From assembly GCF_004765785.1 (NCBI RefSeq), contig NZ_SBIT01000007.1:124001-188000 (forward strand): a DNA stretch of 64,000 nt, in the 5' to 3' direction. Position numbers and translations under genes: made by a program. The notes beneath the pieces are model-generated. The model ran no database searches. It was not told the origin of the DNA and worked only from the letters and a program-made list of their open reading frames with translations. This DNA comes from Halorussus ruber (GTDB taxonomy: Archaea; Halobacteriota; Halobacteria; Halobacteriales; Haladaptataceae). Below, one piece after another: positions 45,131-47,427 of this stretch; position 1 is the first letter of the stretch, and each line of letters starts with the position of its first letter.

Positions 45131-45140
45131 GTATATATTT
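45131..45140 (+). promoter_or_regulatory. TATA box of the HELNH metalloprotease gene
   Basis: GTATATATTT is centred 25 bp upstream of the ATG at 45161, the spacing expected for a leaderless haloarchaeal transcript. It marks the left promoter of the low-GC island. Confidence 0.6.
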
Positions 45141-45160
45141 CTCCAATTTAAATTAGAATA

Positions 45161-46318
45161 ATGAATAGTAAGGTGCGCGTGCTGGCCGTGGTCGCGGTAC
45201 TAGCTCTCGCGGTACTCGCTGGATTCTACGCTACTGAAAGCCAGAATACGGGAAAAAACGAACGGAACGTCGTGATAGAAGCGTGCGATTCGTTGCCGGA
45301 TTACGACTACGAGCGAATGGTCGAGCGTGTCGAGGATATAAAAGGTGAGCAACTGAAGCGGAATCTGTCGATTTGCGTCGAGCAGGAGGAGAATGGCATT
45401 GACACGACCACGAATCAGCGACAGTTTGCCCGTATCGAGGAGCCCGGTCTCTCGTTCTTCGGCCTCAACTCGACGACAAACTCGCAGCAACGGTCGTCAC
45501 TCGGTCACACGGAGTTTTCACCGAGCGGCGGACCAATCGAGATTTTTCTGGCGAACGAAACCGTCGTCGAGAACGTCTCGTGGATTTCCTACGAAGGTCT
45601 CGTCGTTCACGAACTGAATCATGCAATCGAAATTGCTGAGCAAACTTCCCGTAATGCGACTTCGACCGAGCGTGTGGCTCCTCCCCAGACGACCGATGAA
45701 ATACTTGTACGACAAGCCCTCGGAAATGGAGTCTCTATGTACGTTGCGGACCTATACGTTCAAAAGTATGGCGGTTATCTAAACGTCTCTGTACTTAGCG
45801 CCGACGCCCAGAACTGGAAGCGCCGAGTCATTCAATCGGTTTACTCTGCAGGATATCGGTATAGCAAGCAGACAGACCAGCGAACCGAGCCAACGACGGA
45901 CTGGCCGAATTCGACGGCGCAAATTCTTCATCCGAACGAGACTCAGAGCGTAACAGGATTGCCATCACGTCCGGACCTGCCAATAGGGTCATTGGAACAC
46001 GTCCGAACTGACCGAATCGGTGAACTGTTCCTTCGAGAGACGCTCGTCAGTAAGGGCATAAGTTTCGAGCGTGCAAGTACTGCGGCCGATGGTTGGACGA
46101 ACGACCGGATGGATTACTTTCGGACGGACGGTTCTGCTGTCGTCACTTGGCGCGTCACGTGGCAGAATTCGAGTGAGAAGGACGAGTTCGTCGAGGTGTA
46201 CAACGAAGTTTACGACTACGAGACAAGAGGCTCCTTTCAGTCTGTTAGTTGCCGAGAATCGGGGAGATATCTTGTTACGTCCAAAAAATCAGTGACTTTC
46301 TTGTTTTGCGATAGTTAA
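45161..46318 (+). CDS. Secreted or membrane-anchored HELNH metalloprotease-like protein
   Basis: 385 residues. An N-terminal hydrophobic segment (VLAVVAVLALAVLAGFYA) exports or anchors the protein. GLVVHELNHAIEIAEQ supplies the zinc-binding HExxH box (H150-E151-x2-H154); a later VRQALGNGVSMYVADLYVQK has the position where gluzincins often have the third-ligand Glu, but no clear EG is seen there, so activity is plausible but unproven. Several N-x-S/T sequons suit a surface protein. GC is much lower than in folCP. Its stop overlaps the stop of the Cys-rich gene on the other strand (TTAA, 46315-46318). Confidence 0.7.
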   Translation: MNSKVRVLAVVAVLALAVLAGFYATESQNTGKNERNVVIEACDSLPDYDYERMVERVEDIKGEQLKRNLSICVEQEENGIDTTTNQRQFARIEEPGLSFFGLNSTTNSQQRSSLGHTEFSPSGGPIEIFLANETVVENVSWISYEGLVVHELNHAIEIAEQTSRNATSTERVAPPQTTDEILVRQALGNGVSMYVADLYVQKYGGYLNVSVLSADAQNWKRRVIQSVYSAGYRYSKQTDQRTEPTTDWPNSTAQILHPNETQSVTGLPSRPDLPIGSLEHVRTDRIGELFLRETLVSKGISFERASTAADGWTNDRMDYFRTDGSAVVTWRVTWQNSSEKDEFVEVYNEVYDYETRGSFQSVSCRESGRYLVTSKKSVTFLFCDS

Positions 46319-47109
46319 CAGCAAAACATCGGGTCACAACACTTGTCCATTGGTTCCTCGTAACAACTGGTAGACCCGTCAGAGTAAACACAACAAATTC
46401 GTTCGTGTTTCGTTTGCATTGCGCCACAGTTGTAACAACAGGAACTCGGCGGACACGTGTATCCGTCAGTCCCACAAGACTTCTGGATTGAGACGTCGTC
46501 GTCGCTACTCTCTACGGTTTGAGTCGAGAGATCATCTTCGGCCGCGGGATCAAGAACAGTAATCAAATTGCCACTTCGGTTCTTCACAGTAGCGAAACTC
46601 CGACCGAGCTGGGGTTGCACGTTGATTCGGACAATTCGTGTCGGTGTTTTTCGCACGATAGAAATGTGAGCCGTAAACTCGCCCTTTTGCTCCGATGCAG
46701 TCACGTACGTCCCCTCTACGGGGTCATTCTCAGCAGGAGCGGTCATGATTTTGACACCGGCAGATCGAACATCTGCGATATTTGCTGATGTTAGAAAACC
46801 GTTATCAGTAAGCTCAGTAAGTAATTCAGAACCGTGCTTTGTTACCACTTTATTGATGCTAGCTGGCTCCTTGTAAGATTCTATCGCTCTTTCGGCTTTC
46901 TGGCGCATTTCGGAGCCTTTTCCTTTGGAACTTGCACTAGCTGTGCTACTCAGGCCAAGAATAGAGGCGAAAGAGGTGGCCAATCCTTTGAGAAGGGGTC
47001 TTCGTTCTGCAGAAGTGTCGTTGTCGCCGTCAAAGACGTTGTGTCCGTCACTAACGCTGTTTAACATCGAACGCCGATTTGTCTCGGGATTGCTATCCTC
47101 AGACATCAT
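46315..47109 (-). CDS. Tat-type precursor with 12-cysteine C-terminal peptide (halocin-like)
   Basis: 264 residues. Residues about 36-60 are a twin-arginine signal (ERRPLLKGLATSFASILGLS, then STASA). The centre (about 65-205) has no cysteine and is mixed alpha/beta (THISIV-like strands, VKIMTAPAENDPVEGTYVTA). All 12 cysteines lie in the last 54 residues (CGTDGYTCPPSSCCYNCGAM up to CCDPMFCC). This order, Tat signal, long pro-region, compact Cys-rich end, matches the halocin C8 precursor, whose pro-region gives immunity. Peptide antibiotic function is inference; a Cys-rich metal-binding protein is the alternative. Confidence 0.75.
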   Translation of the reverse strand: MMSEDSNPETNRRSMLNSVSDGHNVFDGDNDTSAERRPLLKGLATSFASILGLSSTASASSKGKGSEMRQKAERAIESYKEPASINKVVTKHGSELLTELTDNGFLTSANIADVRSAGVKIMTAPAENDPVEGTYVTASEQKGEFTAHISIVRKTPTRIVRINVQPQLGRSFATVKNRSGNLITVLDPAAEDDLSTQTVESSDDDVSIQKSCGTDGYTCPPSSCCYNCGAMQTKHERICCVYSDGSTSCYEEPMDKCCDPMFCC

Positions 47110-47130
47110 ACTATATTATAAATACTATAG

Positions 47131-47141
47131 TTAAATAAATT
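47131..47141 (-). promoter_or_regulatory. TATA box of the Cys-rich precursor gene
   Basis: On the minus strand ATTTATTTAA is centred about 26 bp upstream of the first ATG (47109), again consistent with a leaderless transcript. The surrounding 47110-47165 is extremely AT-rich. Confidence 0.5.
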
Positions 47142-47283: not shown

Positions 47284-47427
47284 TCAGTTCGGAATATCCA
47301 TCAGCGCCTGCCACGTGTCGTGGCTGACCACACTGTCAACCGTGATTCCGGCGTTTGTCTGGAAGTCCTCGATGGTGCTCTCGGTCTCCGGACCGTAGTA
47401 GCCGAGGAAGTATCCTTCGACGTACTT
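47284..47427 (-). pseudogene. Peptidoglycan-binding-domain remnant
   Basis: Minus-strand codons from 47427 read GYFLGYYGPETESTIEDFQT, then NAGITVDSVVSHDTWQALM and a stop at 47284. This is the second half of a PG_binding_1 domain. No start or upstream half is present: the 5' side runs into the end of the glycosyltransferase gene in another frame. It looks like the 3' leftover of a secreted protein gene, perhaps lost when the adjacent low-GC island arrived. Confidence 0.6.

Follow-up and report, generated by a model that had tools for sequence, protein, structure and literature searches.

Two convergent genes of Halorussus ruber, one encoding a protein with a cysteine-rich end (P0001) and the other an exported protein with an HELNH motif (P0002), raise the question of whether a secreted peptide is encoded here next to the protease that matures it. 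The pair lies in a stretch of 64,000 nucleotides of contig NZ_SBIT01000007.1, called the window in what follows. According to the original prediction, it could be an undescribed microhalocin system in which P0002 would process a precursor built on the plan of halocin C8.

Layout of the locus

As indicated in Table 1, the two genes converge and their stop codons (TAA/TTA) overlap by 4 bp, as had been predicted. The GC content of the locus, ~0.49–0.53 (about 50%), was also found to be far below that of the flanking genes (0.66–0.71, about 68%). The locus had for this reason been called an island, a term that fits its composition and not its history. The pair is flanked by a folC/folP-type fusion gene on one side and a glycosyltransferase gene on the other, and this slot holds orthologues in five other Halorussus-group genomes, meaning that it is an old slot and not the product of a recent insertion. 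TATA-like strings are indeed present near −27; however, the upstream regions are so AT-rich (GC 0.17–0.21) that such a match is uninformative, and the leaderless TATA boxes of the prediction have partial support only. The reading frames of both genes are kept in other species, with pairwise dN/dS values of ~0.12–0.40 within Halorussus (dS being near saturation in many of these comparisons), which indicates that both are constrained genes. In the gap between the cysteine-rich gene and the glycosyltransferase gene, we also observed a 47-aa peptidoglycan-binding remnant (PF01471, 37.5 bits; positions 47284–47427, minus strand) without a full gene around it.

Table 1. Positions of the features discussed in the text (window coordinates, or locus coordinates where a locus is named)
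Feature	Position	Strand	Basis or remark
Cys-rich precursor gene P0001, 264 aa	46315..47109	-	ORF; Halorussus orthologues; family of 103 distinct tails
Tat signal region, residues 1-61, RRPLLKG at 36-42	46927..47109	-	RR invariant; weak TAT models
Cys-free pro-domain, residues 62-211, core HISIVRKT...PQLGRSFATV	46477..46926	-	Part common across the family
Disulfide-rich tail (predicted), residues 212-264, 12 Cys	46318..46476	-	Cys conservation and parity
Partner gene P0002, 385 aa, putative pseudo-gluzincin	45161..46318	+	ORF; Hvo_1808-family kinship; AlphaFold2 model
HELNH motif, residues 150-154	45608..45622	+	Intact only in the window and H. litoreus among orthologues
Asn189 in place of Glu as third zinc ligand	45725..45727	+	Asn in 5/5 full-length orthologues
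Convergent stop overlap, 4 bp	46315..46318	.	Same overlap at H. amylolyticus locus L063
Family of 283-292 aa proteins near precursors	L079:3558-4418, L200:3858-4748, L205:4128-4997, L208:4154-5032, L209:6009-6872, L211:5693-6544		

P0001 and its haloarchaeal relatives

The Tat signal, the cysteine-free pro-region and the 12 C-terminal cysteines ascribed to P0001 were all recovered, the only correction being that these cysteines, which include CC doublets, occupy the last 53 residues and not the last 54, the first of them being residue 212. The RRPLLKG motif is accompanied by a hydrophobic stretch, as in a Tat-type signal, and its RR is invariant among the 28 aligned members of the family, which the TAT models match weakly. 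Orthologues in two Halorussus species are 56% and 55% identical to P0001, and those of H. amylolyticus and H. aquaticus keep 12/12 tail cysteines. Among Halorussus orthologues the tail is better conserved than the pro-domain (68–74% compared with 47–52% identity), which marks the tail as the functional end of the protein. A structure model of P0001 built from three sequences had a pLDDT of 42 and was left unused.

A profile built on 28 relatives detected 81 loci, nearly all of them at E < about 1e-8, in 47 of the 391 sampled haloarchaeal genomes (about 12%), with several loci per genome in Halorussus, in some cases in tandem. The members have the Tat signal and the pro-domain core in common, and their tails have diverged beyond recognition. 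Two distant relatives are found on Halorussus plasmids; none was found in phage records. Pfam and NCBIfam gave no consistent family match except for Tat-signal models, PDB sequence searches returned nothing meaningful for this family or for that of the partner, and a text search of the open literature found no earlier description of haloarchaeal cysteine-rich Tat proteins, which does not prove that there is none. Judged by these comparisons, the proteins form a large, hitherto undescribed haloarchaeal family with ever-changing tails.

The H. ruber genome (G000) has four copies in total, P0001 included; the three others, L077 (C4:368031), L224 (C2:30242) and L225 (C3:198224–198793), have 6, 10 and 8 tail cysteines, respectively. 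At locus L205 (G161:C1:3409000–3421500), three precursors with differing tails (8, 10 and 14 cysteines) stand in a row, flanked by members of two unnamed families. The first is a family of membrane proteins with the motif YTG.NRC.PCTVVNT, found 75–264 nt from precursors (L074:6129–6899, L205:7680–8513, L218:4306–5211 and L219:6014–6826); the one member scanned had no Pfam or NCBIfam match. The second comprises the 283–292 aa proteins of Table 1, located 37–214 nt from precursors at six loci; the two members scanned had no Pfam match and only one NCBIfam match, which was below threshold. PQQ-propeller proteins also adjoin precursors (L076:5857–7965, L181:2902–4995 and L181:5856–7868), the one at L076 carrying in addition a protein-kinase-like domain.

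The number of cysteines per tail ranges from 4 to 22 and is even in 101 of the 103 distinct tails of the family. Random parity would give about half, and although kinship among the tails reduces their effective number, kinship is very unlikely to be the source of this excess. The parity thus points to tails that are very probably fully disulfide-bonded. An exported, metallothionein-like protein whose tail binds metal would also suit the very high cysteine density of some members; however, even parity is what disulfides lead one to expect and is no requirement of metal clusters, and the protein is exported into an oxidising space, so that we consider metal binding quite improbable.

We then compared P0001 with halocin C8 (ProC8/HalC8). 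Both are haloarchaeal and Tat-exported, with a cysteine-free pro-region and a cysteine-rich C-terminus of similar length, and to this extent the common plan that had been proposed stands; no homology was detected in pro-region or tail. TIGR04449, the C-terminal halocin C8 domain, gave no match to P0001 at E 10, whereas the positive controls L084 (halocin C8 itself), L082, L100 and L103 scored 34–58 bits. PF22862, the Halocin 8-like N-terminal domain, matched neither P0001 at E 10 nor any of the 28 relatives at E 0.01, the same controls scoring 164 bits (L084), 87 bits (L103) and only 21 bits (L082), with no match for L100. Profile-profile comparison gave probabilities of 1.6% for the pro-regions and 0.04% for the tails, and a relationship of P0001 to halocin C8 was rejected. 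The P0001 tail, with its 12 cysteines and CC doublets, is also hydrophilic (GRAVY −0.35), in contrast to HalC8 (+0.89) and halocin C8 tails as a whole (+0.3 to +1.15). A check of 25 loci with a halocin C8 domain gave no gluzincin-family gene within about 1–1.5 kb. Elsewhere in its genome H. ruber has a halocin C8-domain gene (L091, G000:C4:335915–336112; TIGR04449 32.6 bits, over the cut-off), whose domain sits inside an open frame of 681 codons.

The partner P0002, its zinc ligands and the pairing

P0002 starts with a hydrophobic anchor that has no lipobox (LAGF). From 18 sequences, AlphaFold2 gave a model with a pLDDT of 81 and a pTM of 0.79, whose residues 34–260 match gluzincin peptidases, the best rows being M1, M9 and M4 (VIA-align Z of at most 9.0, a moderate value, over 150 residues with an rmsd of 3.5); as modelled, P0002 has a gluzincin fold. 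It resembles the Hvo_1808 surface proteins (NF038145) by C-terminal profile homology (44 bits, the equivalog cut-off being 200), by a wider alignment, by its export and by its gluzincin-type core, and differs from them by the missing lipobox cysteine and Glu ligand and by four cysteines conserved within the window clade. On these alignments P0002 is related to the Hvo_1808 family but has diverged from it. Hvo_1808 itself is a cell-associated lipoprotein of unknown role, with LAGC reported as its lipobox (PMC2945643).

Is P0002 an active protease? The prediction was right that the neighbour of the precursor gene is exported and carries an HExxH motif. However, the second His of this motif is lost in three of the five full-length orthologues (HELSD, HELSD and HELSS), and the position of the third zinc ligand is occupied by Asn in all five. 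These two features set P0002 and its orthologues apart from the M1, M9 and M4 peptidases whose fold P0002 resembles; in the non-orthologous family members that we aligned, HExxH is followed downstream by a Glu within an EGxA-like motif. Despite this ligand loss the partner is under purifying selection (dN/dS 0.16–0.40). The Asn in 5/5 orthologues together with the loss of the second His in 3/5 suggests that P0002 is probably a dead protease, a pseudoprotease kept for binding, with some possibility of weak catalysis by the HELNH-bearing forms through an unusual third ligand.

Orthologues of P0002 occupy the same chromosomal slot in H. litoreus, H. halobius, H. amylolyticus and H. aquaticus. In the last two, an orthologue of the cysteine-rich gene adjoins that of P0002, and the partner has no HExxH while the precursor has all 12 cysteines. 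In the slots of H. litoreus and H. halobius, the partner is found alone, without a trace of the cysteine-rich gene, a persistence that may be likened to that of orphan immunity genes. In a further Halorussus species (G274), both genes of the pair have decayed together.

The partner without precursor in H. litoreus and H. halobius is also what one would expect if the two genes were accidental neighbours in a low-GC chromosomal slot. We looked for other loci pairing the two families. In the 47 genomes, which contain 81 precursor loci and 64 gluzincin loci, such adjacent homologues were indeed found: six pairs, five of them independent, compared with 0.13 expected by chance (Poisson P 2.5e-7). 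The pairing is not due to chance, and with independent pairs in several lineages and orientations an accidental neighbourhood is highly improbable, even if about 90% of the precursors have no adjacent gluzincin gene. In four genomes (G176, G124, G327 and G266) the partner lies on the same strand downstream of the precursor, within 229 nt or overlapping it; in G396 it is a frameshifted, divergent neighbour. HExxH and the Glu ligand are both intact in the partners of G176, G327, G266 and G396. In that of G124 the motif reads HELGG, again with its second His missing, and the protein is placed with the window clade with a support of 100/99, on a long branch that makes this placement less sure than the support suggests. 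Beyond the genus, no precursor matches P0001 better than the one adjoining this partner. By these sequence relationships, a haloarchaeal family other than that of H. ruber has the same type of pair as the window, with the two genes arranged in tandem rather than convergently and amid other neighbours.

The view that P0002, as an active zinc protease, frees a microhalocin from the precursor by cleavage thus has in its favour the HELNH of the window protein, a real association of the two families and the four paired partners that keep all their ligands. Against it stand the Asn in every full-length orthologue, the lack of HExxH in two of the three intact Halorussus pairs, with the precursor cysteines complete, and the incomplete motif of the G124 partner. 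We regard an active processing metalloprotease at this locus, as originally predicted, as unlikely.

A candidate secreted two-gene module

We propose, with a probability of roughly 0.45, that the locus is a secreted two-gene module composed of a bacteriocin-like, disulfide-rich peptide precursor and a surface partner, formerly a processing protease and here a pseudoprotease. P0001 would be a Tat-exported precursor whose 53-residue C-terminus, a small hydrophilic domain containing six disulfides, is carried on a conserved pro-domain. Proteolysis would probably free the tail, whose action would be extracellular and most likely that of a bacteriocin-like (halocin-type) peptide. P0002 would be a membrane-anchored extracytoplasmic protein with an Hvo_1808-like gluzincin as its ancestor. 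Where the two families are paired in other lineages, the gluzincin in most cases keeps its zinc ligands and probably cuts or trims the precursor; in the window lineage catalysis has very probably been lost, and the partner may have been kept for binding, most likely in an immunity or chaperone function towards the peptide. The Tat plan, the even cysteine numbers, the non-random pairing, the ligand loss and the purifying selection are results of computation, and the disulfide bonds, the cleavage and the antimicrobial and immunity roles are inferences.

Processing of the precursor in the window lineage would then be left to another protease, for example an S8 subtilase. With 15 matches to S8 peptidases in the H. 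ruber genome, and with HalH4 of Haloferax being matured by serine halolysins (PMC12893001), another processing enzyme is available. As far as descriptions can be compared, the HlyR4-HalH4/HapP antagonism of Haloferax mediterranei likewise involves a secreted precursor whose activation is attributed to extracellular proteolysis, but its protease is a serine halolysin and not a gluzincin relative (PMC12893001). As of 2026, no protease had yet been assigned to the maturation of halocin C8 (PMC12893001).

The hypervariability of the tails across the family and its often multicopy or tandem genes favour the proposed module. Points against it are that most precursors stand without a gluzincin neighbour, that the hydrophilic tails are unlike the membrane-active halocin C8, that a cysteine-rich tail would be equally in place in a secreted protein with another role, such as adhesion or signalling, and that the window P0002 itself retains HELNH. 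The cysteine-rich proteins could indeed be structural or serve in adhesion, kin recognition or signalling, the gluzincin relative being a surface-protein partner, with no antagonism involved. The hydrophilic tails, the putative nature of the antimicrobial role of family members and the cell-associated Hvo_1808, with its unknown role, are all compatible with this; in contrast, the extreme diversification of the tails, the tandem copies and the ABC neighbours, some of them similar to DrrA or to lantibiotic-protection proteins, better suit a competition peptide, and we find a non-antagonistic role rather unlikely.

As to these neighbours, DrrA-type ABC ATPases are encoded less than 1 kb from seven precursor loci in several genera (L178, L192, L195, L196, L227, L249 and L250), the one at L195 scoring 161 bits against the lantibiotic-protection ABC subfamily, under its cut-off. 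At L219 an ABC-2 permease gene follows a more distant precursor. Since such ABC genes are common, these neighbours are suggestive only.

A wider form of the proposed module, which we hold with considerable doubt, is that haloarchaea possess a large and hypervariable arsenal of disulfide-rich peptides on a common Tat pro-domain, and that in one lineage the maturation protease has turned into a dead immunity protein, kept even without the peptide gene. The halocins of known sequence are few, and this family offers a pool of candidate antimicrobial peptides of archaea that can be searched, with the recurrent gluzincin partner as a concrete candidate for their processing or for immunity to them.
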